This document shows, piece by piece, positions 28,582 to 58,248 of a stretch of 64,000 bases of DNA. The stretch comes from Ignavibacteriota bacterium (GTDB taxonomy: Bacteria > Bacteroidota > Ignavibacteria > UBA10030 > BY39). The notes beneath the pieces are model-generated. The model did not search any database. It was not told where the DNA came from and saw only the letters and a list, made by a program, of their open reading frames with translations. The translations under genes were made by a program, and so were the position numbers. The stretch covers positions 62,001 to 126,000 of the forward strand of contig QOQV01000009.1 in NCBI GenBank assembly GCA_003327435.1, read 5' to 3'. Every line of letters starts with the position of its first letter. Position 1 is the stretch's first letter.

Positions 28582-28593
28582 ATTGGAAATCAT

Positions 28594-30467: not shown

Positions 30468-30479
30468 AGAGGGAAATTT

Positions 30480-34858: not shown

Positions 34859-34900
34859 TATTGCACTTAACCGATAAAGTAAATGTTACCTTTAACGATA

Positions 34901-36538
34901 ATGAAAATATTTATTAAAAATCTTAAAGCTCGGTTTATCTCACATATTTATGTAGGCGCCTTGTTTATTTTCTTCTTTCCGGGTTTTATTTCATGTCAAA
35001 CACAATTACCTTACCTGATTCGTGATGAGATTAAACCGGTAAATGCACCATTCGAGATTGAACAATTCAAAAGGCCTGTATTTCCAGATAATTATTTTGA
35101 TATTAGAGATTTTGGTGCGAAAGAGGGTGGCGAGGTTAAATGTACAGAAGCAATTCAGAGAGCTATCGTCCATGCTGCTAACAATGGTGGTGGTTATGTA
35201 ATTATTCCCAAAGGTAAATGGTTGACAGGTGCAATTCATCTTGATAACAATATCAGTTTATATCTTGACAAAGATGCAGAATTAGTATTTAGCCAGGATC
35301 CAAAGGATTACTTGCCAGTTGTGTTTTCAAGACATGAAGATGTCGAATGTTATAAATACTCTGCATTTATTTATGCAAATAATAAAACAAATATTGCTAT
35401 TACTGGTGCAGGAACTTTAAATGGACAGGGTAAAACCTGGTGGGATTATAAAACAAAGAAAAAGGAAAGCGAAGTTTTACTTTATGAAATGGGGAAGAAC
35501 AATGTTCCCGTAGAAAAAAGAATTTTTGATGGAACAGATGGTCGAGAACTAAGACCGGCATTCTTCCAGCCAATGAATTGTACTAATGTTCTTGTTGAAG
35601 GAGTAACATTTTTGTTTGGCGCTTTCTGGACAATCACTCCGACTTATTGTGATAATGTGATAATAAGAAAAGTAAAAATAATTACTTATGGTGATCTTGG
35701 TGATACTCCAAATGGCGATGGTGTAAATCCATCCTCATCAAAAAATGTTTTGATCGAAGACTGTGAATTTAGTACCGGTGATGATTGCATTGCTATTAAA
35801 GCCGGAAGGGATAATGATGGTTTGCGTGTTAACAAACCATGTGAAAATATTATTATTAGGAACTGTAAAGGCTTGATTGGTCACGGTGGAATAGTCATTG
35901 GAAGCGAAACTTCGGGTGGAATAAGAAATATCTTTGCCGAGAACTGCCAGTTTTACGGAACAGATAGAGTTGTTAGGATCAAAACCACTCGAGGTAGAGG
36001 TGGTATTATTGAAAACATGTGGTTTAAAAATCTTTCGGGAGATAGTATACAGAAAGAAGCATTAAGAATAAATATGAGGTATAATCCTCAAGGACCACTT
36101 GTCGAGAGATTGCCTGCTCAACCAGTTACAAAATCAACACCAATAATTCGAAATATTAATTTTGAAAATATAAAAATAACAAATAGTAAAAATTATTCTA
36201 TAGAGTTGCTTGGTTTGCCAGAAATGTTAATGGAAAACATTTCTTTTAAAGATATTTATCTCAGTTCCACAAAGGGAATCAATTTATCTGATGTAAATAA
36301 TATCAGTTTTAAGAATATTTTTATAAGTTCAAAAGAATTACCAGTTGTTGAAATCCTTGATGGGAAAAATATTGAATTTGAAAAAATAGAGTTCGCTGGT
36401 AAAAGCAAAAATCTGTTCAATATAAAAGGTAAAAACTCACAAAATATAGTACTCAAAAAGTCCAATATTGGAGATAAAAATGAAGCCTTTTCATTTGGTG
36501 AAGAGGCATCACATAAATCAATCATCATAGAAGATTAA
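34901..36538 (+). CDS. GH28 polygalacturonase, exported
   Basis: GH28 enzymes hydrolyse alpha-1,4 links in polygalacturonan, or in rhamnogalacturonan/xylogalacturonan. The protein has an N-terminal export signal ending FISCQ, which could be a lipobox. It then has a DIRDFGAKEGG opening and a parallel beta-helix. The GH28 residues are visible: TPNGDGVNPSSS near 268-279, TGDDCIAIKAG near 292, GHGGIVIGS near 327 and RIKTTRG near 359, giving the three catalytic Asp and the conserved His, Arg and Lys. I prefer the ATG at 34901 to one at 34883 because it gives a more normal signal peptide. It is the first gene of the pectin locus. Confidence 0.9.
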   Translation: MKIFIKNLKARFISHIYVGALFIFFFPGFISCQTQLPYLIRDEIKPVNAPFEIEQFKRPVFPDNYFDIRDFGAKEGGEVKCTEAIQRAIVHAANNGGGYVIIPKGKWLTGAIHLDNNISLYLDKDAELVFSQDPKDYLPVVFSRHEDVECYKYSAFIYANNKTNIAITGAGTLNGQGKTWWDYKTKKKESEVLLYEMGKNNVPVEKRIFDGTDGRELRPAFFQPMNCTNVLVEGVTFLFGAFWTITPTYCDNVIIRKVKIITYGDLGDTPNGDGVNPSSSKNVLIEDCEFSTGDDCIAIKAGRDNDGLRVNKPCENIIIRNCKGLIGHGGIVIGSETSGGIRNIFAENCQFYGTDRVVRIKTTRGRGGIIENMWFKNLSGDSIQKEALRINMRYNPQGPLVERLPAQPVTKSTPIIRNINFENIKITNSKNYSIELLGLPEMLMENISFKDIYLSSTKGINLSDVNNISFKNIFISSKELPVVEILDGKNIEFEKIEFAGKSKNLFNIKGKNSQNIVLKKSNIGDKNEAFSFGEEASHKSIIIED

Positions 36539-36612: not shown

Positions 36613-39564
36613 ATGTCCAATCGGAATGCTTTCGGTGTTTCAAAAATTGAATGCCGAAAAAATGTACTTTTTCTAATCAATTGTTTAACTAAATGGGGGT
36701 TAAAAGTTCTTTTTGTAGTTTTATTTTCTCAGAATCTTTATGCTCAGAACGTTGGGAAAATCTCCGGAACTGTGAAAGATGCTGAAACTGGTGAACCACT
36801 CATAGGTTGTAATATTGTTGTAGTTGGAACTTCTCTGGGTGCATCAACCGATTTAGAGGGTTCGTATTTTATTCTAAACATACCACCTGGCAAATATGAT
36901 GTTCAAGCTTCAATGGTGGGATATCAGACAGTTTTACAGCGCGGTGCTATCGTGAACTCTGGGAGAACTACAACTATAGATTTTAGACTTAGATCTGAAG
37001 CTTTAGTTCAAAAAGAAGTTATAGTTGAAGCTGTTAGACCAGATGTAGAGAAGGAGAAAACATCTACGAGTGTAGTAATTCGTTCTGAAGATGTACAAGC
37101 TATTGCAGGTATCAGAGATGTTGGTGATGTTCTGGGATTAGCAGCAGATGTTATCGACGGACACTTTAGGGGAGGTAGGGTTGGTGAAGAATATTATGTG
37201 CTACAAGGTATGGGAATTGTAAATCCACTAAATAACACAAGTGCCTTCTTACCAATTATGAGTGCAGTCGAGGAAGTTGAAGTAATAACAAGTGGTTTCG
37301 GAGCTCAATATGGAAATGCTCAATCAGGTATTGTTAATATTTCTATGAAGGAGGGAAAACCTGATAAATGGAGAACTACAATTGAAACCAGATTACGGGC
37401 ACCAGGTCGGAAACATTTCGGTCCGAGCGTTTTTGATCCAGGTGCGAATCCTTACCTGGCATTATTATTAGATGAAGCTACTTGGTTACAGGGTGATCCT
37501 CAAACCAATACCCCTTATTACACTTCTATGGGATCCGGTTTGAAAGACAGATATAGAGGCGATACACTGGTACAATTGCAGGTTGCACGAACCCTTTGGC
37601 AATTGCAAACCAAAAGAGATCTAAATAAGAAATACGGAAATGATATTGATTACTCAATAGAAGCAGCAACTGGTGGTCCAGTAGATGAAAATATTAGAAT
37701 GTTTCTTGCTCTGAGATCAAATACAAATTGGCCAATGTTTCCAACAGAATTACCAAATCTTCAACAACAGATTATGGGTAATATTGCATCTGAAATATTT
37801 AAAGGGGCATCTTTTAGAATAAGTGGTGGTTATTCCCAGGAAAATTCTAATATATTCCCTGGTTCAAATAGTTTGGGTTATTACAACTGGTTATGGGATA
37901 GAGTTTTATCAATTAATTACCAGAAAACTACAAATGCGCAATTTGGCATGCGATTTACACACACACTCAGTACGAAAACATTCTATGAACTAAAGTTCAG
38001 TTCGTTAAGTACAAAAAGAAGATTGGGTTCAACACCTTCTCCTGAATCGATACCAGATTCATTAATTGTAAATCCACAGAATAAACAAATCGATTGGGAT
38101 AAAATAATACCGCAGGTAGTTAAATCACCAGATGAATTTTATTACCTCAGAGGGGCTGGTTTGTTCAGGAATGAATTAACACAAACATTTTCGTTGGATG
38201 GATCTATTTCAAGTCAAATTACAAAGTCTCACTTAATTAATGCAGGTGTTCAGTTTAATACTTATTTGATTAATGTTTCCAATAATTTGAATGTTCGAGA
38301 CGGTTCAGGTGGACCCGTTGAAAATTATAAAATTAGACCTTATGAATTTGCAGTCTATGCACAGGATAAAATGGAATTTGAGGGATTAATTGCAAATGTT
38401 GGTTTACGATTCGATGTGTGGAGTTCACAGGCTAATTATTATTTAGATGAATTTGCTCCTTTTAGGATTATCGATTCGCTGAGTAATCCAATAAATGATC
38501 CTTTAGCTGCGCCGCAGAAAAAAGCTCCGGCGATAGCTCGCTTTCAACCCAGGTTAGGAATTTCATTTCCCGTCTCTGTAACAACTGTATTCCATCTGAA
38601 TTATGGCTCATTTATGCAACGACCTTCTTTTCAATACATTATATCGCAAAGAGTTAAACAAGCAAGGTTGGCACCAATAAGATTGGGTAATCCAAGACTT
38701 GAACCTGAAACAACCAATAGTTATGATGTTGGTGTAATGCAAGGGTTGGGTGAAGGTTTCACACTCGATATTAGCGGTTATTATAAAGATGTTAAAAACC
38801 TCGTCGAGATGGCTACATTTACTTCGGATATGTCGTATGAAACTTATTTCAATAGAGATTATGCCGATATCAGAGGATTTAGAGTAGCACTATCAAAAAG
38901 AAGGGGTTCACTTACAGGTTCGTTAAATTATCAATTCAGTTATGCAACTGGTAAAAGTGCTACCACAGAAAATGCACCACCTTCCTTCATAAAGGATCCA
39001 GGAACAGGTGAAATTCAAGTAAAATTGGATAAAGTGCCAGTGAGAGATATTTTACTAAATTTTGATAGAACGCATAACTTAATATTGAATCTTGCTTATG
39101 TAACTAAAAGAGAATGGGGACCAAAAATTAAAAAATATTATCCCTTTGAAAATTTAGTTGTGTCTCTTAATTCTTTCTTTAGAAGTGGTAGACCTTATAC
39201 ATCATCAAAAAATCCAAAACTTATTAATGCTGCTCGTACTCCTGATGAATATAATATGGACCTTAAATTTATGAAACGAGTTAATAATTTATTTGGAATG
39301 AATGTAAATTTTTATTTTGAAATATTTAATTTGTTTAACAATAAGATCTTGAATTACGACTATATTTTCTCGGTTCCAAATGCTGGGGCTACCAACAACA
39401 GGATCAAAGCTTATGAAGATTATCCCATTGATGATCCAAATTATGGTATACTATACTGGCAGGATGTAAATACACCCTCCAAAGCTTTTGCTGTTGATCA
39501 ATCCTTCTTGATATACGATAATCAACCAAGGTCGTATTATTTTGGAATTATTATTGAATTTTAA
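36613..39564 (+). CDS. TonB-dependent outer-membrane receptor with carboxypeptidase-like N-terminal domain
   Basis: This 983-residue protein has a long N-terminus with a signal segment (about 25-45, ending LYAQ). A carboxypeptidase-regulatory-like domain follows (about 48-125, KISGTVKDAETGEPLIGCNIVV), then a plug domain (about 140-245, with ITSGFGAQYGNAQSGIVNISMK) and a large beta-barrel ending in an aromatic residue (YYFGIIIEF). It is of the SusC-like/CirA type that imports large ligands with TonB energy. Placed after the GH28 gene, it most likely takes up pectin oligomers. No SusD gene accompanies it; the next three genes are other outer-membrane or secreted proteins. Confidence 0.9.
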   Translation: MSNRNAFGVSKIECRKNVLFLINCLTKWGLKVLFVVLFSQNLYAQNVGKISGTVKDAETGEPLIGCNIVVVGTSLGASTDLEGSYFILNIPPGKYDVQASMVGYQTVLQRGAIVNSGRTTTIDFRLRSEALVQKEVIVEAVRPDVEKEKTSTSVVIRSEDVQAIAGIRDVGDVLGLAADVIDGHFRGGRVGEEYYVLQGMGIVNPLNNTSAFLPIMSAVEEVEVITSGFGAQYGNAQSGIVNISMKEGKPDKWRTTIETRLRAPGRKHFGPSVFDPGANPYLALLLDEATWLQGDPQTNTPYYTSMGSGLKDRYRGDTLVQLQVARTLWQLQTKRDLNKKYGNDIDYSIEAATGGPVDENIRMFLALRSNTNWPMFPTELPNLQQQIMGNIASEIFKGASFRISGGYSQENSNIFPGSNSLGYYNWLWDRVLSINYQKTTNAQFGMRFTHTLSTKTFYELKFSSLSTKRRLGSTPSPESIPDSLIVNPQNKQIDWDKIIPQVVKSPDEFYYLRGAGLFRNELTQTFSLDGSISSQITKSHLINAGVQFNTYLINVSNNLNVRDGSGGPVENYKIRPYEFAVYAQDKMEFEGLIANVGLRFDVWSSQANYYLDEFAPFRIIDSLSNPINDPLAAPQKKAPAIARFQPRLGISFPVSVTTVFHLNYGSFMQRPSFQYIISQRVKQARLAPIRLGNPRLEPETTNSYDVGVMQGLGEGFTLDISGYYKDVKNLVEMATFTSDMSYETYFNRDYADIRGFRVALSKRRGSLTGSLNYQFSYATGKSATTENAPPSFIKDPGTGEIQVKLDKVPVRDILLNFDRTHNLILNLAYVTKREWGPKIKKYYPFENLVVSLNSFFRSGRPYTSSKNPKLINAARTPDEYNMDLKFMKRVNNLFGMNVNFYFEIFNLFNNKILNYDYIFSVPNAGATNNRIKAYEDYPIDDPNYGILYWQDVNTPSKAFAVDQSFLIYDNQPRSYYFGIIIEF

Positions 39565-39582
39565 AAATGATTGGGTCAAAAA

Positions 39583-41769
39583 ATGAAATATCTTAAAATT
39601 ATAATTTTCTTTTTGGTAGTAGTAAATTCTCTGTACGCACAACAGAGAGATTTTCGCATACATAAACGAGGTATGCTACATCAAACTGTATTTAACACTG
39701 GAGAAGTTGGCAGAACTTTTGATAACGGTACCGGTGGAATTTTGATTGGTTATCCTTCAATGGAGTGGCCACCTTATTCGTATACAATCATTGATAGGAA
39801 AACGTATGCTGGGCAACATAATTCTTTCGGTGGTGGTATTCATATTGCTGGTACAGTAGGAGATGTCAGACAATATATATATTGTGGTGCCGTTACCGAT
39901 GCTAATGGAAAGGCTACCCAGGTGGAAGGTGTGTATAGTTATCCAATCTCTATTGAAAGAATTGAAAACTATCCCCTGAGAGATGATGGTAGTATTAATC
40001 CAGATTATAATCCTGACGAAGCTGAAGAAAAAATTATTGCAAAATGGGGAACCCCTCTCGGCATAACAGTCACTAGAACAAGCCGTACATGGAGTTTCCC
40101 TGGATACAATAGTTTCATAATATATGAGTATGAATTGGTCAATACTGGTTCCGATACAATAAAAGATGTTTTTGTTTCCTGGGTATATGGTTTTATGACT
40201 TCAATGTTTGGTTATGAAAGAAAATTTAATCGTTGGGCCGAAGCAGATTCAAGATCTCAGGACCAATTTGCTCGTTTCGATTTTAGACGTTATCTCACAT
40301 ACAATCATGATCGAGACGGAAAACCTGATTCTGTGTTTTTTGCAATTTGGTCAAAACCAGGAGATCGCGGTGGGTTAAATTCACCTCAAGCAGCTGGTCT
40401 TCTAATGTTATACTATGATTATGATCATCTAGCGACACTTGGAAATACGGGCGTTTATGTAAGCAGATCTGATTCAATTGTGGTATGGGATGAAAATAAT
40501 AAAATGAAACAACCCTGGTTAAACAGATATGAAAATAGTAATCTTTATCCAACAAAACTTCAAACCTGGCTCGATCCATTAAATAGAAAGAGCAGCGTAT
40601 TTAAATCTAAGACAGATTCGACATATTTTTATTCAGATAATTATCATTGGATTGGTCGAGCAAAGCCATCACAAACACTTGGATGGAGCCAACCAGCAGT
40701 GCATGGTATGGGATATGGACCATATATTTTACCTCCGAATGAACCTGTTAGATTCGCAGTAGCTGAGGTTGTTGGATATGGACCTGGCATCGCAAGCGAT
40801 AGCATCTATCAAGATTTGGGTGGTGGAATTCGCGGTGAACCAGAACCCTACCTACATCCAATTCCAAGCTGGTATGCGAAATTAACTTACCCAAATGTAG
40901 GAAATCCACCTTTCATAGGAAGTGATTACTTACAAAGTTATCCACTCCCATGGTATGTTACTCCGGGTGTTGTTTCAATAAGAGATGTAGCCGATAGAGC
41001 TATTGAAATATATACTGGTAAGCCGCTGATCAAATATGACACAGTCCAGTATGATCCAAAACAATCAACACCAGATGGTAGAGGGGTTTATAATACTGTA
41101 AAAATACCATTTCCAGCACCGGTTATTAAAATTGAAAACACACAAGCAGGTGTAAACAAAATAATCTGGAAAGCAGATGTAGAAGAATTTAATACTACCA
41201 GATTAAAAGCACCATTAAGTTATTATCAGGTAATGAAAGCAACTCATCCATTAGGCCCCTGGGAGGTGATAGATAGTGTCGGCATACGTGACTCTCGATA
41301 TTTTTATGATTCAGTTTATATAGTGTTTGATGAAAAAAGTGAAATTGGAAATTATTACTATTATGCAGTTCTATCGATTGACACTTTAGGTGAAAAAAGT
41401 GGAATGACAAACATAACACAACATCAAACAAGATCCCCGTCTGTAAAAAACCTTGGTGATCCAATAGGAAAGGTATATGCTGTTCCAAATCCCCTTATTG
41501 TTTCTAATGAAAAAGGTGGATTTGATCCAAGAGGTGAAATAACGGATAGAATTCAATTTTATGGTTTAACGAAGCGATGTACAATCAGGATTTTCTCTTA
41601 TAGTGGTCAATTGATTCAAACAATAAAACATGACGAAGATTCAAATTATCAATCATGGTTTCAAATATCAATCAATAATCAGATAATTGCTTCTGGTGTT
41701 TATTTCTTTGTTGTGGAAGATGATGAGACTGGTTCAAGAGCTTATGGCAAATTTGTAATCATACACTAA
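39583..41769 (+). CDS. Secreted protein of unknown function with C-terminal sorting-domain-like tail
   Basis: This 728-residue protein has a signal peptide (ending LYAQ). A long unrecognised region rich in Tyr, Trp, Pro and Gly follows (about 20-520), then a fibronectin-III-like stretch (about 540-640, VIKIENTQAGVNKIIWKA). The C-terminal region (about 650-728) has KVYAVPNPL and SGVYFFVVEDD, resembling a type IX secretion tail but lacking the YPNPFNP core. I chose the ATG at 39583 over a TTG at 39571. It sits between the TonB receptor and a PorV/Q-like gene, where a surface ligand-binding protein would be expected, but no known binding domain is visible. Confidence 0.6.
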   Translation: MKYLKIIIFFLVVVNSLYAQQRDFRIHKRGMLHQTVFNTGEVGRTFDNGTGGILIGYPSMEWPPYSYTIIDRKTYAGQHNSFGGGIHIAGTVGDVRQYIYCGAVTDANGKATQVEGVYSYPISIERIENYPLRDDGSINPDYNPDEAEEKIIAKWGTPLGITVTRTSRTWSFPGYNSFIIYEYELVNTGSDTIKDVFVSWVYGFMTSMFGYERKFNRWAEADSRSQDQFARFDFRRYLTYNHDRDGKPDSVFFAIWSKPGDRGGLNSPQAAGLLMLYYDYDHLATLGNTGVYVSRSDSIVVWDENNKMKQPWLNRYENSNLYPTKLQTWLDPLNRKSSVFKSKTDSTYFYSDNYHWIGRAKPSQTLGWSQPAVHGMGYGPYILPPNEPVRFAVAEVVGYGPGIASDSIYQDLGGGIRGEPEPYLHPIPSWYAKLTYPNVGNPPFIGSDYLQSYPLPWYVTPGVVSIRDVADRAIEIYTGKPLIKYDTVQYDPKQSTPDGRGVYNTVKIPFPAPVIKIENTQAGVNKIIWKADVEEFNTTRLKAPLSYYQVMKATHPLGPWEVIDSVGIRDSRYFYDSVYIVFDEKSEIGNYYYYAVLSIDTLGEKSGMTNITQHQTRSPSVKNLGDPIGKVYAVPNPLIVSNEKGGFDPRGEITDRIQFYGLTKRCTIRIFSYSGQLIQTIKHDEDSNYQSWFQISINNQIIASGVYFFVVEDDETGSRAYGKFVIIH

Positions 41770-41783
41770 AAAAGGAAATGATT

Positions 41784-42809
41784 ATGAAAAGAAAAATATT
41801 TTTCTTGATATTGTTTTTATTACTGATTTTTATTAGCGATGGATTTTCTCAGAAGGTTGGTAGTACAGCAATGCAATTTTTAAAGGTGATGCCTTCTGCA
41901 CGTGCCGCAGCATTAGGAGATGCATATACTGCTTTTGCTACAGGTGCTGATGCAATTTTCTGGAATCCAGGTTGCTTAGCAAAAATCGAAAAAATGGAAT
42001 TCTCATCTACTTATATTAATTGGATCTTTGATACTAAACAGGGTGCCTTCTCGTTTGCTACGCCTTTTATGGATTTTGGTGCCATCGGGTTTCAAATACA
42101 ATATGTGGATTTTGGAGAATTTATAGAAACTTCAAATTTAGATCCATATATAAAAAATCTTGACGGTCCAGGTCTCACTGGAAGGACATTCCGACCTTTT
42201 AGTTATTTGATTGGATTGTCTTACTCAAAATTCTTAACTGATAGGTTTTCTACCGGTTTAGGTATTAAATATGTTCACGAATCACTCTATAACGGACAGG
42301 AAGTAATTGCTCTTGTTAGAACTGGTGGATACGAGAAAGTAAAAACCTGGGCTAATGGAATTATATTCGATTTTGGTATGTACTATAATACCGGCTTTCG
42401 TTCAGTTCAAATTGCTACCGCAGTTCAAAATTTTGGTGCAAATGTGAAGTATGCAAAAGAATCAAATCCTGTGCCTTTACTATTCAGATTTGGAATTGCT
42501 GCAAATCTGATTGGTGCTGAAGCCCTGCTTTTAACTGAAAAAAATAATCGCCTGAGTGCTGAGTTCGATCTTTTCCAGCCCAATGATTATGCACAGCAGG
42601 CACATCTCGGTTTGGAATATGAATTTTCTGGTATATTCGCAATTCGAGGTGGATATAAAATCAATTATGATTATGAGGGTTTTACATTTGGTGCAGGTCT
42701 CAAACATAGTTTTGTTGGCGTTAACTTGATGATTGATTACAGTTATGGTTCAATTGGAAAATACTTAGGTAGTGTTCATCGATTTAGCTTAGGAGCTCAA
42801 CTTCAATGA
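41784..42809 (+). CDS. PorV/PorQ-like outer-membrane protein
   Basis: This 341-residue protein has a signal peptide (ending FSQ) and then STAMQFLKVMPSARAAALGDAYTAFATGADAIFWNPG, the hallmark opening of the PorV/PorQ (UPF0164) barrel family, with beta-strands to the C-terminus. PorV is an outer-membrane shuttle that delivers type IX cargo to the surface attachment machinery. A locus-specific copy beside several sorting-domain proteins suggests a dedicated role in their display or in uptake. The ATG at 41784 is preferred because GGA at 41774-41776 is well spaced for it. Confidence 0.82.
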   Translation: MKRKIFFLILFLLLIFISDGFSQKVGSTAMQFLKVMPSARAAALGDAYTAFATGADAIFWNPGCLAKIEKMEFSSTYINWIFDTKQGAFSFATPFMDFGAIGFQIQYVDFGEFIETSNLDPYIKNLDGPGLTGRTFRPFSYLIGLSYSKFLTDRFSTGLGIKYVHESLYNGQEVIALVRTGGYEKVKTWANGIIFDFGMYYNTGFRSVQIATAVQNFGANVKYAKESNPVPLLFRFGIAANLIGAEALLLTEKNNRLSAEFDLFQPNDYAQQAHLGLEYEFSGIFAIRGGYKINYDYEGFTFGAGLKHSFVGVNLMIDYSYGSIGKYLGSVHRFSLGAQLQ

Positions 42810-42820
42810 GGAATAACATC

Positions 42821-44296
42821 ATGAGAAAATTTAAAATTTTATTAGTAATCTTATTCATTTGTTATTTTGTATCTTACCCACAAGGTTATGATTATCCACT
42901 GGATATTCAGGGTGTTAACCATATAAATAGTTTGTCCGCTTCACTAAGAGCCGCTGGAGATGTCTCAATCCTAATACAAAATGATGCTGGTTTGTTGTTT
43001 ACGAACCCAGCCATGTTATACTCAATTAAAAACTTACAATTTTCAATCGGAGGATTACAGTATTATTCAAAATCCAGCCAGGTTCAACACTATACTCCAT
43101 TAAAATATTATTCCAATTTCAGTTTACTGATGGAGGGATTGACAGGATTAATTAGTGATCCTGACACCTCACTTTCTGCTTCAAACCCTGGTGATACAGT
43201 CCAACGGCCTTTCGATTCAATTATGCCTAACTGGGCAAGATCTAAGAATCCATTTATACCGGTTCATTTAATCGCAGCTTATCCTTTTTCATTATTTGAG
43301 AAGAAATTTGTAGTTGCAGCAGGTGCGGTAAATTATATCGATTTAAACCATTATTATCAGAACAATAATGTTTTATCGCCTCCAATCGGTTCTGAAAGAC
43401 CTGTACCTGTACCTTTACCTCCGAACAATCCGGATTCAACATTTAAAACTCTCTGGTCACAATATATTCGTTCTCGTGAAGGTTCCATTAGGGGGTATGG
43501 ATTATCCCTGACAAGTGCATTATCAGAAAATATCTCAATTGGTGTAAGTGGAATGTACTTAGATGGAAAGAGTAACGATTTTGAGCAGAGCTTGGGAAGA
43601 GGCAGATTGGTATTTTACTACAACTATTTTAGATTAGATTCAACTAATTTTAACAGGCGAGAAATTAAAACAGGAACATCAGAGTTTAAGGGATATGAAT
43701 TTAATCTAAGTGGAATTTATTCGGGTAAAAATGTAAGTTTTGGATTCGCTATTAAACCACCGAGTACTATTAAACGAGATTTTAATACAAATATTTTGGT
43801 TGAAAGCCGTGATAGTTCTTATTCAACACAAACTGTCGGTAGCGATGAGATAAAGCTTCCCTGGCGAGGTGCTGTGATGATGTCAATAAACTTGCTTCAT
43901 AATTTGAGATTGGGACTTGAATATGAATATAGACCTTATGAAAATATGAAATACAAAAAATCAGATGGAAACGAATCAAATCCATGGTTATCGGCTTCAA
44001 TATTTAAAGCTGGCGTTTTGTATACTCCGTTATCATGGCTTTCGCTTCGGGCTGGTATGAGAGGACAAGCGGAAATATTCGAACCAGAAGGAAATCCTTT
44101 ACCAGGTGAACCTGTTAGGTATTCAATCTATTCAGCTGGGTTTGGAATTTCTTATGCAAATTTAGTTTTCAATTTAACTTATGAGTATTCTGCGATGAAG
44201 TATCAAGATATGTGGCAAACAAATGTGAATTTTAACAAAGAATTTCGAAATAGTTTAATGGCAGATTTAAAAATAATTATTAACTTAATTGAATAG
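42821..44296 (+). CDS. Outer-membrane beta-barrel protein, FadL/OmpP1-like
   Basis: This 491-residue protein has a signal peptide (ending YPQG) and a region with ASLRAAGDVSILIQNDAGLLFTNPAML, reminiscent of the N-terminus of FadL/OmpP1-family barrels. Alternating beta-strand sequence continues to the end. The function is unknown. It may be a pore or assembly partner for the TonB receptor or PorV-like protein encoded upstream. The ATG at 42821 has GAGG at 42808-42811; an earlier ATG at 42806 overlaps the previous stop. Confidence 0.68.
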   Translation: MRKFKILLVILFICYFVSYPQGYDYPLDIQGVNHINSLSASLRAAGDVSILIQNDAGLLFTNPAMLYSIKNLQFSIGGLQYYSKSSQVQHYTPLKYYSNFSLLMEGLTGLISDPDTSLSASNPGDTVQRPFDSIMPNWARSKNPFIPVHLIAAYPFSLFEKKFVVAAGAVNYIDLNHYYQNNNVLSPPIGSERPVPVPLPPNNPDSTFKTLWSQYIRSREGSIRGYGLSLTSALSENISIGVSGMYLDGKSNDFEQSLGRGRLVFYYNYFRLDSTNFNRREIKTGTSEFKGYEFNLSGIYSGKNVSFGFAIKPPSTIKRDFNTNILVESRDSSYSTQTVGSDEIKLPWRGAVMMSINLLHNLRLGLEYEYRPYENMKYKKSDGNESNPWLSASIFKAGVLYTPLSWLSLRAGMRGQAEIFEPEGNPLPGEPVRYSIYSAGFGISYANLVFNLTYEYSAMKYQDMWQTNVNFNKEFRNSLMADLKIIINLIE

Positions 44297-44307
44297 GAGA
44301 TTTAATT

Positions 44308-45906
44308 ATGAAAACACTTTACAAAATTTCTTTAACACTGTGTTTAATAGTGGCAACATCTACGATTTTATATGCCCAAACAATTGGGGATTATCGTTCA
44401 AATGGAACCGGTATTTGGAGTAATGCTGGTATCTGGCAACGATTTAACGGTACAAACTGGGTTGGTGCTTCAACTCCACCTACAGGTTCGGAAACTATTA
44501 CAATTCGTAGTGGTGATTCTGTTTACATTAATGCTGTAGTAAATCTTACAGGAATACTAAAAAATGAAGGCAAACTTGGTGGTACTAGCAATCTAACAGT
44601 AAAATCTGGTGGGTTGTATTCACACGATCAAAATGGTGGTTCAATTCCAGTTTGTACATGGGAAGATGGATCTACCTGTCAGGTTACTGGATATGTAAGT
44701 GGTAGTAAACCAAATAATTCAAATCAAAATTTTTATAATTTTGTTTGGGATTGCCCTGGACAAACACAGAATGTGGATGTAGCATGGTATTATAATACAA
44801 TAAATGGTGATATCATGATAAAAAATACAGGCACATCTCGACTTCAAATGACAAGTCCAGGTGCTGGTTCCCCCAATACTATTGAAATTAAAGGAAATAT
44901 TTATGTCCTTGGTGGACAATTTTCTTCAAATGGCTCGAGCAGTACTGCTGATATAATAGTAAATACGTATGGAAATATTTATGCCATTGGGACCCCAGGT
45001 AACCTCACAAGTGTAAATTTTTCGATTAGTAGAGGTTCAGGTCCTAATGTGTTATGGAATTTGTATGGAGATTCTTTAATTATACAAAACGCAACAACAC
45101 AAAATTCAGGTGGTGCTAAGTGTAAATTTGTTTTTGCTAAAAATGGTGAACAAGTATTGAAAATTGAAAATGTAGCATATGGTTCTACCAGTGCAGCGGT
45201 AAGCTTTGATGTCGCATCTGGTTCTATATTATATCTTGGTACTACTGAGTTGATAGGTGCATTATCGACAACAAATACTGGTAGCTTCAGGGTACTTAGT
45301 GGTGCAACAATTTACTCTGCTCATCCTGGTGGTATTAATGGTAATATTCAATGTACAGGTGAAACAGGTGGTGGAAACTTCTTTGCAACTGATGCAAGTT
45401 ATGGCTTCAATGGTACGGAGAATCAGGTTACTGGTACAATGATGCCGGATGTAGTCCAAGATTTAATTATCGATAATCCAACTACAGTTGCTCTCTCAAA
45501 ACCAACTACAATCAATGGAGTGTTAAGATTGAAAGCTGGTGTGTTTGATAATACAATTCCATTTACACTTGGACCATCTGGGTCAATTTCTTATGAAGGT
45601 GGCAGCTTGTTGGTGTCGGTTAATGAAAATTCAACAATTCCAGCTTCCTTCTATGTCTATCAGAACTTTCCAAATCCTTTTAATCCTGTAACCAATATAA
45701 AATTCGATTTACCGTATGAATCATATATCACAGTTAAGATATTTGATTTGTTAGGTAAAGAAATTTCTACTCTATTTACTGGTAAACAAAATGCTGGTAC
45801 ACACGAATTATCATTTGATGCCTCTAATCTCAGTTCTGGAGTTTATTTGTATCGAATTCAAACTGATAAGAATATTGCTGTGAAGCAAATGATTTTAATT
45901 AAATGA
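44308..45906 (+). CDS. Secreted protein with a repeated beta-rich module and type IX sorting domain
   Basis: This 532-residue protein has a signal peptide (ending LYAQ) and a G8-like opening (GIWSNAGIWQRFNGTNW). The module at about residues 112-295 (VTG..S.SKPN, NQNFYNF.W.C.GQ, TSPGAGSPNTI) recurs in the proteins at 48382 and 59853. The C-terminal sorting domain starts near 450 (YQNFPNPFNPVTNIKFDLP) and ends in VKQMILIK. No catalytic residues are recognised. It may bind or present pectin at the cell surface. A long-loop inverted repeat that may terminate transcription lies 55 bases after the stop. Confidence 0.7.
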   Translation: MKTLYKISLTLCLIVATSTILYAQTIGDYRSNGTGIWSNAGIWQRFNGTNWVGASTPPTGSETITIRSGDSVYINAVVNLTGILKNEGKLGGTSNLTVKSGGLYSHDQNGGSIPVCTWEDGSTCQVTGYVSGSKPNNSNQNFYNFVWDCPGQTQNVDVAWYYNTINGDIMIKNTGTSRLQMTSPGAGSPNTIEIKGNIYVLGGQFSSNGSSSTADIIVNTYGNIYAIGTPGNLTSVNFSISRGSGPNVLWNLYGDSLIIQNATTQNSGGAKCKFVFAKNGEQVLKIENVAYGSTSAAVSFDVASGSILYLGTTELIGALSTTNTGSFRVLSGATIYSAHPGGINGNIQCTGETGGGNFFATDASYGFNGTENQVTGTMMPDVVQDLIIDNPTTVALSKPTTINGVLRLKAGVFDNTIPFTLGPSGSISYEGGSLLVSVNENSTIPASFYVYQNFPNPFNPVTNIKFDLPYESYITVKIFDLLGKEISTLFTGKQNAGTHELSFDASNLSSGVYLYRIQTDKNIAVKQMILIK

Positions 45907-45960: not shown

Positions 45961-46030
45961 AGTGCTCCGATAACTCCTCCGATGAACCCTCCTTTGGTTA
46001 CTTGCTTGCTACTTTTTTTATCGGAGCACT
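45961..46030 (+). terminator. Long-loop inverted repeat, possible terminator or regulatory hairpin
   Basis: AGTGCTCCGATAA (45961-45973) and its exact reverse complement TTATCGGAGCACT (46018-46030) flank a 44-base loop and are followed by TTTGTTGTT. The 13-base-pair stem and T-rich tail fit a terminator at the end of the 44308 gene, but the loop is unusually long and C/T-rich. Confidence 0.55.
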
Positions 46031-46051
46031 TTTGTTGTTAAATATGTGAGT

Positions 46052-47248
46052 ATGAATTATTTCATAAAAATAACACTATTGCTTGTATCAATTTCTTTCG
46101 GTTGTGCTCAGGAAATTGGTAAAATTACAAGTGAGTTACCTTGGTCAAATAGAATTGCTGACTCTTTTATAAGCCGGCATCCAGATTTTGCTACGCACGA
46201 TTCTTTACATCCCAATCAAAAATGGAACTATGAGCAGGGATTAATTTTATTTGCTTTATATCAGACTTATCTACAAAATAAAAATGAGAAATATTTAAAA
46301 TTCGTAGCAGGTAATCTGGATAAATACATCAACGAGAATGGTGAGATTAAAACTTATAACTTAGAAGAATACAATATCGATAATATCTTACCTGGCAGAA
46401 CAGTGCTGGAACTTTATCATCTTACACGACAGGAAAAATATAAAATTGCGGCTGATAAGTTAAGAGAGCAATTGAAAACACATCCCCGTACAAATGAAGG
46501 TGGATTCTGGCACAAAAAAATATATCCGTATCAAATGTGGTTAGATGGCATTTATATGGCACAACCTTTCAGTGCAAGATACGCTCAGCTGTTTAATGAA
46601 CAAGAAATGTTTGATGACATCGCAAATCAGTTCTTGTTCATTGCAAATCATACTTATGATAAAAAAACAGGATTATATTATCACGGATGGGACGAAAGTC
46701 GGCAACAGAAATGGGCAAATCCGGAAACTGGTTGCTCACCAAACTTCTGGTCAAGATCCATGGGCTGGTATTTGATGGCGTTGGTGGATGTTCTGGATTA
46801 TTTCCCTGACACACATCCGAAGCGAAGCGAGTTGATTAAAATATTTTCACAACTTTCAGAATCAATTTTAAAATACAGAGATCAAAAATCTGGTTTATGG
46901 TATCAGGTAACTGACCAGATTGGTCGAGAAGGTAATTATCTTGAAGCATCCAGCTCGTGTATGTTTGGTTATTCTTTTGCAAAAGGTGCAACAAAAGGAT
47001 ATCTCGATAAAAGATTTTTTAATGTTGCCGAAGATGTTTTTAATTGTGTTATAAGAGAATTTGTTAAAGTAGATAATAATGGTTTTGTAGATTTGTATGG
47101 AACCTGTAAAAGTGCTGGCTTGGGTGGTAAACCATACCGCGATGGAAGCTACGAATATTATATGAGTGAACCTACTCGAGTGAATGATATGAAAGGTATC
47201 GGAGCCATAATATTATTCGCATTAGAGTTAGAAAAATATAAGAAATAA
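46052..47248 (+). CDS. GH105 unsaturated rhamnogalacturonyl/galacturonyl hydrolase
   Basis: GH105 enzymes (YteR/RhiN type) remove the 4,5-unsaturated uronic acid from the end of oligomers produced by pectate or rhamnogalacturonan lyases. The protein (398 residues from the ATG at 46052) has a lipoprotein-type signal (SISFGC). The (alpha/alpha)6 barrel includes YPYQMWLDGIYMAQPF with the catalytic Asp near 165, followed by SRSMGWYLMALVD and YLEASSSCMFGYSFAKG. The signal suggests a periplasmic or outer-membrane location. It complements the PL1 and PL9 lyases encoded downstream. Confidence 0.9.
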   Translation: MNYFIKITLLLVSISFGCAQEIGKITSELPWSNRIADSFISRHPDFATHDSLHPNQKWNYEQGLILFALYQTYLQNKNEKYLKFVAGNLDKYINENGEIKTYNLEEYNIDNILPGRTVLELYHLTRQEKYKIAADKLREQLKTHPRTNEGGFWHKKIYPYQMWLDGIYMAQPFSARYAQLFNEQEMFDDIANQFLFIANHTYDKKTGLYYHGWDESRQQKWANPETGCSPNFWSRSMGWYLMALVDVLDYFPDTHPKRSELIKIFSQLSESILKYRDQKSGLWYQVTDQIGREGNYLEASSSCMFGYSFAKGATKGYLDKRFFNVAEDVFNCVIREFVKVDNNGFVDLYGTCKSAGLGGKPYRDGSYEYYMSEPTRVNDMKGIGAIILFALELEKYKK

Positions 47249-47269: not shown

Positions 47270-48364
47270 ATGAGAAGACGAAACAGGATAACACTTGAGG
47301 ATATTGCCAAGAAGGTCGGAGTATCGCGCGTAACTGTTTCGAAGGTTTTACGCGGACATACAGACATTTCTACTGAGATGGCTCAAAAGGTGAAAAAAGT
47401 TGTTGCAGAAATGGGATATACACCAAATATATTTGCTCGCAGTTTATCAGCAAGAAAATCTAATATGATAGGTCTTATTGTCCCAAAAATTGCTCACTAT
47501 TTCTTCAGTGCAGTGATTGAGGCAGTGTATGAAGGGGCATTGCAGAGAAAATATGAAACAATCTTAACTGTTTCTCAAGAAAATCCCGAAATAGAATGGA
47601 AGCATCTTCAGGCACTCGCGGCAATGCGAGTCGATGGAATCATAATTTCTGTTACACAAAAAACTGATGACATTGAGCGATTTAAATGGATTAGAAAAAT
47701 GGGTATACCTCTTGTTTTCGTAGATCGAAAACCAGAAAAACAAATTTCAGGATTTGGTAGTGTGGTGACTGATGATCATAATGGAGCATTTCAAGCTGTC
47801 GAACACGCAATTAAAATAGGTTATAGAAAATTAGGTCTTATTGGCGGAAATAAAAAAATCAATATCGGTAGAAATAGAATTAACGGATTTGAAGATGCGC
47901 TAAAAGAATATCGGATACCAGTAAACAAAAACTGGATTGTCACAGGTGGTTATGGTAAAGATGATGGTTACAACGGATTCAAATATTTATATGAAAGCGG
48001 TTCCGTACCTGAATTTATTCTTGCGATTACCTATCCTGTTGCACTTGGAATACTTGAAGCAGCAAAAGATTTCGGGGTTCGAATCCCAGACGATGTCGAC
48101 TTAATCTGTTTCGGTGATAGTGATGTGGGCAGATTTTTATCTCCAGCTCTAAGTGCCATTCGTCAACCAACTCGTGAACTCGGAATTAGAGCAGTCGAAA
48201 TTTTATTTGAAGATATTGAAGAAAAAGAAATTACAAGAGAACATCATGTTATACTTCCTGCTCAACTTGTTATTCGTGAAACCTGTACGACTAAAAGAGC
48301 AAAAGGTATTGAAAATATAAAAAATATTCAGGAATTTGAAGATACAAAATTAACTACAAAATAA
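47270..48364 (+). CDS. LacI-family transcriptional regulator
   Basis: This 364-residue protein has an N-terminal helix-turn-helix (ITLEDIAKKVGVSRVTVSKVLRG, residues about 7-29) with the LacI hinge (YTPNIFARSLSARKSN). A periplasmic-binding-protein-like sensor domain follows (MIGLIVPKIAHYFFS to VIRETC). It probably represses or activates the pectin genes in response to a sugar or uronate. The gene lies between GH105 and the large surface proteins, preceded by AGAGGAA. No operator could be assigned with confidence. Confidence 0.92.
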   Translation: MRRRNRITLEDIAKKVGVSRVTVSKVLRGHTDISTEMAQKVKKVVAEMGYTPNIFARSLSARKSNMIGLIVPKIAHYFFSAVIEAVYEGALQRKYETILTVSQENPEIEWKHLQALAAMRVDGIIISVTQKTDDIERFKWIRKMGIPLVFVDRKPEKQISGFGSVVTDDHNGAFQAVEHAIKIGYRKLGLIGGNKKINIGRNRINGFEDALKEYRIPVNKNWIVTGGYGKDDGYNGFKYLYESGSVPEFILAITYPVALGILEAAKDFGVRIPDDVDLICFGDSDVGRFLSPALSAIRQPTRELGIRAVEILFEDIEEKEITREHHVILPAQLVIRETCTTKRAKGIENIKNIQEFEDTKLTTK

Positions 48365-53280: not shown

Positions 53281-56200
53281 GTGTTAAGAAAAAATTTAAA
53301 TATTGCAATTTTAATTCTGACCATTGCTACTTTAGCAATTGGTCAGGTACAGTTAACAGAAAATTGGGATTCGGGAAATTCGATCCCTACTAGTAGTAGT
53401 AGTGCACCAAGTGTCCCGACCGATTATAATACGAGCTCCGGTGTGTGGACATTGTTCCGTTCGTATCGACACGGGACAACATATTATTCGGCTCCTTATG
53501 CTCTCAGATTGTTAAAGGGTGTTGATACAGCTTATGCAATTACACCTGTGCTAAACAGTGTCGGTACGGTTTCATTTTATGGTTACGCTGTTGCACCAAG
53601 GCCAATTTATATTTTTATATCAACTAATGGTGGTTCCAGCTGGATTTTCGTGGATTCTGTATCAACTGGTAATGGTGCTTTTGCATTCTGTACAAAAACA
53701 ATTAACGATCCTTCAAATAACCTAAAATTGAAATTCCAAAATGGAACTGGAAACGGAAATGATATCAATATTGATAATGTGGTAATAACTTCCTATACCA
53801 CAAATTCTCAAATTGAAGTGTCAACAAGCTCGCTTTCAAATTTTGGTAATCTGGTTTATGGAAATTATTCTATTTCACAATCATATACAGTGTCAGGTAC
53901 AAATTTAACAGGTGATTTAGTAATCACTTCGCCTGCAGGTTTTCAAATAAGTAATGATAATTCGAATTTTTTCAATAGTATTAATCTTACTCCGGTAGGT
54001 GGGAATGTTAATAATACTAATATCTATGTAAGATTTACCCCAACTTCACCATCAGGTACTATGACGGGGGAAATTCAACACACAAGTGCCGGTGCTGCAA
54101 CGAAAACTGTTTCAGTTTCAGGTATAGCGCTCGATGTGGAACCAACTCAACAGTCCAACATTACATTCGGAACTGTTACTGATACTTCAATTACAGCAAA
54201 TTTCTCGGGTGGTAATGGTGCGAGAAGAATTATTGTGATAAGATTGGGCAATCCTGTAACATTTGTCCCAACCGACGGTGTGAGTCCATCAGGTGTGAAT
54301 TCGAATTTTAATTTAGCATCAGATCAGGGAAGTGGAAACAAAATAGTTTATGATGGTGCAGGAAATAATGTGACAGTTACTGGTTTATCTCAAAATACAA
54401 CTTATCATTTTGCAGTTTATGAGTATAATGTTGGTAGCAATAATTCACATAATTATTTAACAACATCGCCTGGAACTGGTTCTCAAACAACATTGACAGT
54501 ACCTACAATTAATGTTGTTCCAGCTTCACTCTCCTTTGGAAATGTTTTAATTGGTACAACTTCTACTGAAAAAACATATCAGATTTCTGGGACTAAATTG
54601 AATCCTGCCAGTGGTAATATTAGCGTAAACGCACCAGTGGGTTTTGAGATTTCATTAACAAGCGGTTCGGGATTTTCTTCTTCAATTAATCTACCATATT
54701 CAGACAGTACATTGAATAATACAACAATTTATGTTCGTTTTAAGCCAACGAATGTTCAAAGTTATATTGGCGATATTACAAATAGTGGAGGTGGAGCTGA
54801 GACAAAAATTGTTTCAGTTACTGGAAACGGTGTTCCACCATCAGCACCAAATGAATTTCAGGCAGAAGATGCTATATTGGTAAGTTCTTATATTATGTCG
54901 GATTATTCTGGATATACTGGTTCTGGTTATGTGGATATGGGTGATAAAGATGGTTCATCGATTGAGTTTGTGTTTAGTCGAGCAACAGCAGCATCAGATA
55001 CAGTTTCTGTTCGATATGCGAACGGTGCAAGTACAAGAAGTTTAACAATTTATTTAAATGATGTAAATGTTGGTACATTATCATTTACAACTACTGGAAG
55101 TTGGACAAACTGGAATACTGTAAGAACAGTTGTTAACCTGAGTGCAGGAGTTAATCGTTTAAAATTCGTTCTCACCACAAATGCTGTTGGTCCTAATATA
55201 GATAAAATCAATATTAGTGGACAGTTAGCAACACCGATGTATAAACTAACCCTTTTAACGAGTGGTAATGGGACGGCTTCAGCAAATCCATCTGCTCAAT
55301 ATTATGAAGCAGGTACAACAGTAACTTTAACTGCAACTCCAAATTCTGGTTATAGTTTTTATCGCTGGGGTGGTACTGACGAAAGCTTTCAGAATCCGTT
55401 AAATATTGTAATGAATTCTCATAAAACCCAAATTGCTGTGATTGCACCAATGGGTGGATTTGTAACTCCATTCCCTTACGAATCATCACCAAGAGGGTTT
55501 GCATCAGTTCCTGCTCTTGGTTACACACAGGGAACTACAGGTGGGAAAGGACCACATAAAGTTTATGTAACAAGTTCAGCACAACTCGCAGAATTAATGA
55601 ATAGAAGAGTCGATGTGGGCAAAGTATTAAATCTTCCACCGCTCACAGTTTATATAGTTGGTACACTCGTACCAGAAGCTGGTGTTACTGATAAAATAGA
55701 TATTAAAGATGCATACGACATATCAGTAATAGGTGTTGGTTCTGATGCAGGACTTAACGGATTGGGATTCAATGTAGTTCGCTCCAAAAATATTATAATT
55801 AGAAATCTAAAAATTGTTAACGCACCTATTGATGGGATTACAATCGAAGCAGATGATTCTGAAGGAACTGGAAATCACATCTGGGTGGATCATTGCTCAA
55901 TCTCAAATTGTTACGATGGGGCTTTAGATGTTACTCATGCTTCAGCTTATGTTACACTTTCCTGGAACCATTTTTATAAGCACGACAAAACAAGCTTGGT
56001 AGGCCATTCTGATAGCCAAACATCTGATGTAGTAATGAAAGTTACCTACCACCACAACTATTTTGATAGCACAGGTCAAAGGCATCCCAGAGTCAGGTAT
56101 GGTAAGGTACATGTCTTTAATAATTATTTCAGAAAAAATATACTTTATGGTGTTTCTTCAAATTGTGAAGCAGATGTGTTGGTTGAAGGCAATTATTTTT

Positions 56201-58248
56201 TCAATGTTCCAATTCCATATGAAAGTTTGAGAGTTGGAACAAGTTATCCAGGGGATTTAGTAGCCAGAAACAATATTTTGGCTGGGACAACAGGTCCGGG
56301 TTCAACTCGAGGGACGGCATTTGAGGCTTCTACATACTATAGTTATACACTTGATTCACCAGAAAATATTCCACAACTAATAACAAACTATGTCGGCAGT
56401 GGCAAATATGATTTCAGTTATGAAGGAGCTGTGACACCAAAATATGTACTTAATGTCACAGCTGTCAATGGAACAGTTATTAAAAATCCAGAACAAATGT
56501 TATATGATAGCGGTGCCGTTGTACAACTGACAGCAATTCCTAATACAGGATACCATTTTGTTAACTGGAGTGGTGATTTAAGCGGTGTTTCAAATCCAAC
56601 AACAATTCTTATGACAAGTAATAAAAATGTTACAGCAAATTTTGCTATAAATCAATACAAGATAATTGCCTCATCAAGCCCAAATGGAAGTATTACACCT
56701 TCAGATACTGTAGTGGTTAATTATGGAGATAGTGTCACATTTACTTTTACTCCTGACACAGGTTATCATATTGATAGTGTATTTGTTGATAATGTTTATA
56801 TCGGTAATCCAGTGAGTTATAAATTCGTCAATGTTTCGAGTGATCACAGGATTTATGTTAAATTTGCAATTAATCAGTACACAATAATAGCTACTGCTGG
56901 TGGCAATGGGAGTATAATTCCAGATGGAACGGTAATAGTCAATTATGGTTCTGATCAATTATTTGTCTTTGTTCCGGCTCAAAATTATCAAGTTGATAGT
57001 GTTTTCGTGGATGGAGTCTATATTGGCTCACCTGCAAATTATACGTTTCAGAATGTTACTAATAATCACACTATTCATGTAAGATTCAGGCAGAGTACGA
57101 TGGGTGTTAGTTTCAATGTAGCTGGTGGTTGGAATTTAATTTCTTTACCAGTAATTGTAGCTAATAATCAAAGAGGAGTATTGTTTCCAAACTCAATTTC
57201 AGATGCATATTATTTTGATAATGGCTACTTAAGCTCTGACACATTAGGGATTGGGATTGGATATTGGCTGAAATTTGCGAATCATGGGATAATCAATCTG
57301 TCGGGTGAACTTTTAACAACAAACCAGATAAGTGTAGAACCTGGTTGGAATTTAATTGGTACAATATCAATTCCTGTTAGTGTTTCTTCTGTGTCAATTA
57401 ATGGCTCTGCTAACTTTTTGTCATCTTTTTATGGCTATAATAATGGATATTTTGTTGCTGATACATTGTATCCTGGGAAGGCGTACTGGATTAAGGTGAG
57501 TGATTTTGGACAAATAGTGATTGGAAATAGTTTAAAGTCAGGGATAATCCAAAAAATGGAAGAAAATATAGAACTAAACTTTATCAAATTCACAGACAAT
57601 GACGGTAACAATCAAAAATTGTATTTTGGAATTGAGAATGATGTTGTAGATGGTGATTATTTTGAATTACCACCATTACCTCCAAGAGGTGCATTCGATA
57701 TCAGGTTTAAATCTAATAATAAAGTGGAATTATATTCAAAGCATTTTAAACAGACAAGAGAAATTCCAATATTACTCAATACAATTTCATATCCGGTGAT
57801 TATAGATAATAAATTAAGTGAGAATGAGAATTTTGAATATTATTTAGTTGTGGACAGGCAAACATATCAGATAAGACCCTCAGAAAGATTAATTCTTTAC
57901 AATGAACCAGAATATGTGGCATTGAAGATTGTAAGTAAAAGTGAAATTCCCAACTCGTTTATAATAAAAGATAATTATCCTAATCCATTTAATTCCACAA
58001 CAAAGATTGAAATTGGACTACCTGAAGAATCTAAATTGAGTATAGAGATATTTAATTTTTTAGGTCAGAAAATTGCTGATATTGCTAAAGGAACCTATAG
58101 CAGGGGTTATCATACCTTCAGCTGGAATGGTAGAGCTGAAGATGGTGCTGAGTTAGGTTCTGGAATTTATCTTTATCGAGTAAATGCAAAATTAATCTCG
58201 ACAGGAAAAACGGTTTCAGAAATCAAGAAAATGATTTTATTAAAATAA
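53281..58248 (+). CDS. Giant PL1 pectate lyase with CBM35-like domain and sorting domain
   Basis: This 1655-residue secreted enzyme has a GTG start, a signal peptide, and two immunoglobulin-like regions (about 180-285 and 410-520) around a fibronectin-like stretch. A CBM35/CBM6-like domain (about 522-648, EFQAEDAILV) and a beta-repeat domain follow. The PL1 beta-helix is at about 733-1050 with HIWVDHCSIS and the catalytic-Arg motif RHPRVRYGKVHVFNNYF. Three further bacterial beta-repeats occupy 1056-1275. The GWNL cassette shared with the 48382 protein follows, and the sorting domain begins near 1563 (YPNPFNSTTKIEIGLP). It cleaves polygalacturonate by beta-elimination, using calcium. Confidence 0.9.
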   Translation: MLRKNLNIAILILTIATLAIGQVQLTENWDSGNSIPTSSSSAPSVPTDYNTSSGVWTLFRSYRHGTTYYSAPYALRLLKGVDTAYAITPVLNSVGTVSFYGYAVAPRPIYIFISTNGGSSWIFVDSVSTGNGAFAFCTKTINDPSNNLKLKFQNGTGNGNDINIDNVVITSYTTNSQIEVSTSSLSNFGNLVYGNYSISQSYTVSGTNLTGDLVITSPAGFQISNDNSNFFNSINLTPVGGNVNNTNIYVRFTPTSPSGTMTGEIQHTSAGAATKTVSVSGIALDVEPTQQSNITFGTVTDTSITANFSGGNGARRIIVIRLGNPVTFVPTDGVSPSGVNSNFNLASDQGSGNKIVYDGAGNNVTVTGLSQNTTYHFAVYEYNVGSNNSHNYLTTSPGTGSQTTLTVPTINVVPASLSFGNVLIGTTSTEKTYQISGTKLNPASGNISVNAPVGFEISLTSGSGFSSSINLPYSDSTLNNTTIYVRFKPTNVQSYIGDITNSGGGAETKIVSVTGNGVPPSAPNEFQAEDAILVSSYIMSDYSGYTGSGYVDMGDKDGSSIEFVFSRATAASDTVSVRYANGASTRSLTIYLNDVNVGTLSFTTTGSWTNWNTVRTVVNLSAGVNRLKFVLTTNAVGPNIDKINISGQLATPMYKLTLLTSGNGTASANPSAQYYEAGTTVTLTATPNSGYSFYRWGGTDESFQNPLNIVMNSHKTQIAVIAPMGGFVTPFPYESSPRGFASVPALGYTQGTTGGKGPHKVYVTSSAQLAELMNRRVDVGKVLNLPPLTVYIVGTLVPEAGVTDKIDIKDAYDISVIGVGSDAGLNGLGFNVVRSKNIIIRNLKIVNAPIDGITIEADDSEGTGNHIWVDHCSISNCYDGALDVTHASAYVTLSWNHFYKHDKTSLVGHSDSQTSDVVMKVTYHHNYFDSTGQRHPRVRYGKVHVFNNYFRKNILYGVSSNCEADVLVEGNYFFNVPIPYESLRVGTSYPGDLVARNNILAGTTGPGSTRGTAFEASTYYSYTLDSPENIPQLITNYVGSGKYDFSYEGAVTPKYVLNVTAVNGTVIKNPEQMLYDSGAVVQLTAIPNTGYHFVNWSGDLSGVSNPTTILMTSNKNVTANFAINQYKIIASSSPNGSITPSDTVVVNYGDSVTFTFTPDTGYHIDSVFVDNVYIGNPVSYKFVNVSSDHRIYVKFAINQYTIIATAGGNGSIIPDGTVIVNYGSDQLFVFVPAQNYQVDSVFVDGVYIGSPANYTFQNVTNNHTIHVRFRQSTMGVSFNVAGGWNLISLPVIVANNQRGVLFPNSISDAYYFDNGYLSSDTLGIGIGYWLKFANHGIINLSGELLTTNQISVEPGWNLIGTISIPVSVSSVSINGSANFLSSFYGYNNGYFVADTLYPGKAYWIKVSDFGQIVIGNSLKSGIIQKMEENIELNFIKFTDNDGNNQKLYFGIENDVVDGDYFELPPLPPRGAFDIRFKSNNKVELYSKHFKQTREIPILLNTISYPVIIDNKLSENENFEYYLVVDRQTYQIRPSERLILYNEPEYVALKIVSKSEIPNSFIIKDNYPNPFNSTTKIEIGLPEESKLSIEIFNFLGQKIADIAKGTYSRGYHTFSWNGRAEDGAELGSGIYLYRVNAKLISTGKTVSEIKKMILLK

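Follow-up and report, generated by a model that had tools for sequence, protein, structure and literature searches.

A survey found susCD genes to be scarce in the gene clusters of Ignavibacteriales (PMC10576277), and how Ignavibacteria, Rhodothermota and relatives with few or no SusD genes import polysaccharide fragments is unexplained in the literature we found. One described locus, that for alginate in Rhodothermus marinus, carries three alginate lyase genes and the gene order tonB-hypA-hypB-hypC, the hyp genes being without an assigned role (PMC9530828). Pairings of surface proteins with outer-membrane barrels are known from other systems. In the type IX secretion system (T9SS), whose cargo carries a C-terminal domain (CTD), PorV collects type A cargo and acts as a shuttle (PMC12618676), Type B cargo is held by partner barrels of the PorP/SprF-like kind in cognate CTD/shuttle pairs (PMC12618676, PMC9143113) and PorZ is anchored by PorQ (PMC7463736). 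BamG, a subunit of the β-barrel assembly machinery (BAM), docks BamH beside BamA (PMC12611786). Here we analyse four adjacent genes, A, B, C and D, in a stretch of 64,000 nt (the window, G000:C4:62001-126000) that ends 167 bp before the end of its contig in a 2.63 Mb Ignavibacteriota genome. We favour, with moderate confidence, the reading that A-B-C-D is a TonB-dependent oligouronide importer in which B, exported by the T9SS and held by C, would do the job of SusD, and D would serve in docking or assembly.

The original prediction placed four adjacent outer-envelope genes behind a polygalacturonase, and all four are indeed found there, on the + strand within 36613-44296, with spacings of 6 nt (A-B), 8 nt (B-C) and -4 nt (C-D). 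Among 84,980 species, full-length relatives of B occur at 152 places, mostly on metagenome-assembled contigs, and 80 of these were kept for counts of gene order. Such counts are conditional on B, through which the loci were selected, and their denominators are the loci with room: A lies upstream of B in 77/77; on the downstream side C is present in 70/71 and D in 62/63; the complete set is kept in 61/61. Chance adjacency is rejected by the last figure, which also answers the question posed with the prediction, whether the same order is found elsewhere or the genes are not kept together. The cassette is present in Ignavibacteria, KSB1, Calditrichota, Rhodothermota and Neomarinimicrobiota. Its distribution is patchy: of 60 genomes of the order roughly one in three has a full-length relative of B, and B was found in 27 of the 296 genomes of a phylum-wide sample. 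The proposal of a different type of glycan import or display complex used by Ignavibacteria-like organisms is still the best reading, import being the inferred part of it, but its range was drawn too narrowly, since the cassette spreads wider and serves loci for alginate as well as pectin.

Judged by sequence, A is a TonB-dependent receptor and, by the curated model, not a SusC. It carries a CarboxypepD_reg-like domain (PF13715, 2.8e-18) along with partial matches to TonB-receptor models; against the SusC/RagA model TIGR04056 it scores 57 bits, at the N-terminus only and short of the cut-off of 368, and its match to RagA itself is confined to residues 50-251. None of the four genes had been thought to resemble SusD, and this holds: neither SusD_RagB (PF07980), matched in 10 of 60 genomes of the order, nor SusD-like_3 (PF14322) has any match in the source genome, PF12741 and PF12771 not having been searched. 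A hidden SusD was rejected on the absence of both families, and no SusD homologue of these two families, which within the locus would have spoken against the prediction, appeared. Across the wider family, SusD-like_3 matches were obtained in 8 of 36 genomes tested, away from the cassette wherever contig coordinates could be compared; for example, Roseithermus sacchariphilus has such genes at 0.55, 2.21, 2.71 and 4.47 Mb and its cassette at 1.61-1.64 Mb.

B, previously called an unknown secreted protein of 728 residues, has that length from the ATG at 39583 and 732 aa from a TTG start; it is predicted to be secreted, as described, but is not wholly unknown, as it appears to carry a PorZ-like type IX secretion domain. 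Its AlphaFold model (pLDDT 90.7) suggests a beta-rich N-terminal region, an FN3-like region and a C-terminal T9SS domain, a placement along the chain that is our own reading because the Foldseek output lists no matched residues. The last ~105 residues are T9SS-like, and the PorZ CTD is the sole solved structure matched by sequence to the B profile (E 7e-4). All 21 of the relatives examined match TIGR04183 (E up to 0.01). A lipobox-like motif occurs in 1 of 69 relatives, on which ground B was rejected as a lipoprotein. In one locus with tandem B genes (L042:608-5037, the same locus as L121), the copy adjacent to A bears a canonical type A T9SS CTD (TIGR04183 at 38.3 bits, above the cut-off) instead of a PorZ-like one. 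This natural swap of CTDs supports the C-terminal region of B as a sorting signal.

The N-terminal half of B is matched by Foldseek to sandwich domains of GH116/GH94-type enzymes and of dextran dextrinase, with FN3 and PorZ matches elsewhere. Together with the fact that many T9SS cargoes are enzymes or adhesins, these matches lend something to an improbable alternative, namely that B, held by C beside the receptor, works on or grips the polymer and delivers no ligand to A. Pfam and NCBIfam recognise only the CTD in B, so that a known enzyme or binding module was rejected and no catalytic family is at hand for this alternative; nor is an (alpha/alpha)6 catalytic domain evident in the predicted secondary structure.

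The export route assumed for B is available in the hosts. The source genome has SprA and PorU, PorZ and a canonical PorV above their cut-offs, and 97 CTD hits, and SprA is present in all 40 cassette genomes tested. A profile of the B CTD (A5) was searched in five genomes: the source genome, R. marinus DSM 4252 (G090), G111, G263 and G007. In the latter four, 36 of 39 hits of at least 45 bits are followed by a same-strand PorV gene within 300 bp, and 3 of the 14 weaker hits by a PorV gene within 600 bp. A TonB receptor lies just upstream of 35 of the 39 strong hits, and partners so placed, directly after a receptor, argue against B being a surface enzyme or adhesin. D is restricted to the six polyuronate members among these 39 loci. 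Of the 8 A5 hits in the source genome (E up to 3e-7), 5 have a PorV gene within 500 bp; of 94 ordinary CTD proteins, 1 does, namely PorU. Besides B, the hits there are four large proteins of TonB/PorV clusters, one more near a PorV gene, PorZ, and a 510-aa protein that directly precedes two PorV-family genes.

The description of C as a PorV/PorQ-like barrel is borne out by NF033709 (PorV_fam), which it matches at 217.8 bits against a cut-off of 90, while staying below the equivalog cut-offs for PorQ (91 of 220 bits) and PorV (83 of 250). The C proteins of the cassettes form one clade, separate from the nine other PorV-family proteins of the source genome that were tested, and C is probably a dedicated carrier or anchor of B. 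D, predicted earlier to be FadL-like, has no Pfam match; its model (pLDDT 91.1) is matched best in Foldseek by BamG (9hiv_F, TMt 0.69) and next by FadL, so its predicted fold is a FadL-type barrel closest to BamG. By sequence the likeness is weak against the BamG model NF053685 (9e-11, 41 bits against a cut-off of 250) and reaches 3.9e-14 between the D profile and BamG. The N-P-A residues at positions 67-69 are nearly invariant.

Both barrels might instead be biogenesis helpers of an importer made of A and B, with C shuttling B from the T9SS translocon and D acting as a client-specific BamG. PorV being a shuttle for type A cargo (PMC12618676) and BamG, the closest relative of D, being a BAM subunit (PMC12611786) both fit such roles, which we nonetheless regard as unlikely. 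Although helpers might act in trans, no cassette with room is without a C and a D. The trees of both barrels also follow the substrate in the same way as those of A and B, and a canonical PorV and a further BamG-like barrel are already present in the genome. That C and D are pores for oligouronides, A carrying some other cargo such as a metal or vitamin, seems very hard to sustain. Family or fold does mark both as outer-membrane barrels, and FadL-family proteins can be transporters, but PorV-family and BamG proteins do sorting and assembly (PMC12618676, PMC12611786), and the tree of A tracks the substrate exactly.

Substrates were labelled by the similarity of neighbouring genes to the pectin enzymes of the window or to alginate-locus proteins named by Pfam, and trees were quick LG+G4 reconstructions with SH-aLRT support only. 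In the B tree, one supported branch splits 21 pectin rows (with 3 unlabelled) from 39 alginate rows (with 11 unlabelled), and the trees of A, B, C and D each need one pectin/alginate change. Where the enzymes of a locus can be recognised, it is one for pectin or alginate; a pectin-only system was rejected because the alginate clade is the larger. The 1056- and 1398-nt genes of the published R. marinus locus match C and D in L178. The profile scores of A to D and the neighbours of close relatives assign to R. marinus DSM 4252 both an alginate and a pectin-type cassette. In another genome (G086), the alginate cassette L177 (7138-10953), compared with L178, has the end of A and the start of B replaced, C and D remaining; positions 8303-10471 of L178 have no counterpart in L177, of which about 0.84 kb is unaligned.

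The observations are of gene content and order, substrate tracking, linkage of CTD and PorV genes, T9SS genes in the genome and the absence of both searched SusD families. The importer inferred from them would work as follows. Lyases secreted by the T9SS would cut the polymer outside the cell. B would cross the outer membrane through the same system by means of its CTD, and C would hold that CTD and keep B on the surface, as PorQ does PorZ; the PorZ-like CTD and the PorV-like neighbour suggest how B may reach the surface and stay there. Forming a complex with receptor A, B would bind the charged oligosaccharide, capturing it or handing it over, with a fold and an export route unrelated to those of SusD, and A would import it with TonB energy, an oligouronide of pectin here and of alginate in the sister clade. 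D, the BamG-like barrel found in the polyuronate subfamily only, may dock B beside A or aid assembly of the complex. Holding by C and docking by D are proposed by analogy with PorQ-PorZ and BamG-BamH. GH28 and GH105 enzymes would complete digestion afterwards.

Several points weigh against this reading. No binding site was found in B, whose N-terminal half is matched only in part by Foldseek (TM by query length about 0.24), which leaves function open. The B of the window scores 18.2 bits against TIGR04183, below the 23-bit cut-off. PorV proteins usually pass cargo on, so that C might act as a shuttle rather than as an anchor. A PorV gene is missing near three of the 39 strong A5 hits, and both thresholds (45 bits, 8 hits) were chosen once the scores had been seen. 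The substrate labels, moreover, derive from neighbouring genes. PL6 proteins are also able to act on other glycans.

The A-B-C layout recurs, with seven copies in R. marinus, and may thus be a wider counterpart of SusCD. The bodies of the partners fall into about four unrelated groups, and the ten partners scanned show no Pfam domain beyond CTD-type or FN3. We speculate, evenly poised between belief and doubt, that triads of a TonB receptor, a T9SS-exported partner and a dedicated PorV-like barrel are a multi-copy class of outer-membrane uptake complexes that corresponds to SusCD in those lineages of the Fibrobacterota-Chlorobiota-Bacteroidota group that are poor in SusD; the polyuronate cassette would be the branch that bears a BamG-like barrel. 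Other sets of receptor, CTD protein and PorV-like gene without D are seen in the source genome (L085, L086, L083 and L082), although the CTD protein of L082 does not stand directly between receptor and PorV-like gene; some of them lie, by translation, near ribosomal and yidC-like genes. A triad annotated as TonB-dependent receptor, hypothetical protein and PorV/PorQ family protein also occurs on R. marinus plasmid pRMAR01 (NC_013502.1, 9542-18312; L222), near type I-U CRISPR genes.

Judged from its enzymes, the locus in the window is a pectin locus (Table 1). Genes A to E run in the same direction, almost gapless, between the GH28 enzyme and the GH88/GH105-type hydrolase and a LacI-type regulator, and relatives of E sit after D in many pectin loci. 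The GH28 enzyme scores 325 bits against the NCBIfam model for BT4155-type alpha-galacturonidase, under its cut-off of 800. Consensus promoter and terminator scans gave results no better than shuffled sequence. A phage origin was ruled out, there being no phage matches. Just 5′ of the locus, 33493-34593 encodes a DUF1016-like N-terminus fused to an N6/N4 DNA methylase domain. The genes at 27259-31406 look, by translation, like those for a P-loop protein, two carbamoyltransferases and a carbamate kinase.

Table 1. Features of the pectin locus, in window coordinates.
Feature	Position	Strand	Basis
GH28 exo-acting galacturonidase-like enzyme, just 5′ of the cassette	34883..36538	+	Pfam GH28 1.7e-39
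A, TonB-dependent receptor, 983 aa	36613..39564	+	PF13715; CarboxypepD_reg-like domain, putative plug and 22-strand barrel
B, predicted secreted partner, 732 aa	39571..41769	+	Full-length relatives, AlphaFold, Foldseek, CTD
C-terminal domain of B, PorZ-like	41452..41766	+	Profile match to PorZ CTD
C, PorV/PorQ-family outer-membrane barrel	41778..42809	+	NF033709
D, predicted FadL-family barrel, closest to BamG	42806..44296	+	AlphaFold, Foldseek, profile match
E, secreted protein with good T9SS type A CTD	44308..45906	+	PF18962 1.7e-12
Terminator-like 13-bp perfect inverted repeat, 44-nt spacer, between E and the GH105 gene	45961..46030	.	Folding against shuffles, z -3.0 (better)
GH88/GH105-type unsaturated glycuronyl hydrolase	46046..47248	+	PF07470 9.5e-114
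LacI-type regulator	47270..48364	+	Translation; relatives in sister pectin loci
Large secreted pectate lyase (Pectate_lyase_4) with CBM6 and T9SS CTD	53281..58248	+	PF00544 2e-31, PF03422 2.3e-11, PF18962 1.4e-5
Pel9A-like pectate lyase with T9SS CTD	58302..59807	+	PF22842 5.6e-27, PF18962 5.5e-9

Beyond the original prediction, the analysis adds the CTD of B, the likeness of D to BamG, the alginate half of the family, the spread outside Ignavibacteria and a fifth pectin gene (44308-45906). Should the T9SS export B and a PorV-like barrel of its own hold it, surface display by that system and TonB uptake, so far treated apart, would be joined in one machine. The cassette would predict use of pectin or alginate from genomes, and it is present in a cultured organism, R. 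marinus DSM 4252. The literature searched, which excludes preprints and most subscription papers, yielded no paper that proposes the cassette for uptake.

Compared with SusC/SusD pairs, the cassette shares a TonB-dependent receptor with an adjacent partner gene, polysaccharide enzymes and a regulator again being encoded in the locus. It differs in having no SusD of the searched families, a receptor under the SusC/RagA cut-off and two extra barrels; unlike SusD, B is rich in beta structure, almost always lacks a lipobox and ends in a T9SS-like CTD. The R. marinus alginate locus, with lyases of PL6, PL17 and PL39, agrees with the cassette in the order of the four genes and is a member of the alginate clade, although its description covers a receptor and hypothetical genes, not the pectin clade or the wider family (PMC9530828). 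As in PorZ-PorQ and in the pairs of Type B CTD protein and PorP/SprF, where a FadL-family barrel holds a surface protein with a T9SS CTD and the genes are often neighbours (PMC7463736, PMC9143113, PMC12618676), B would be paired with C; here, however, the pair follows a TonB receptor, and the CTD of B is of type A, PorZ-like, whereas the rule described for type A is one general PorV. Finally, BamA-BamG-BamH (PMC12611786) likewise sets a BamG-type FadL barrel, holding a surface protein, beside another barrel, whereas D scores far under the BamG cut-off and its gene belongs to a sugar-uptake cassette.

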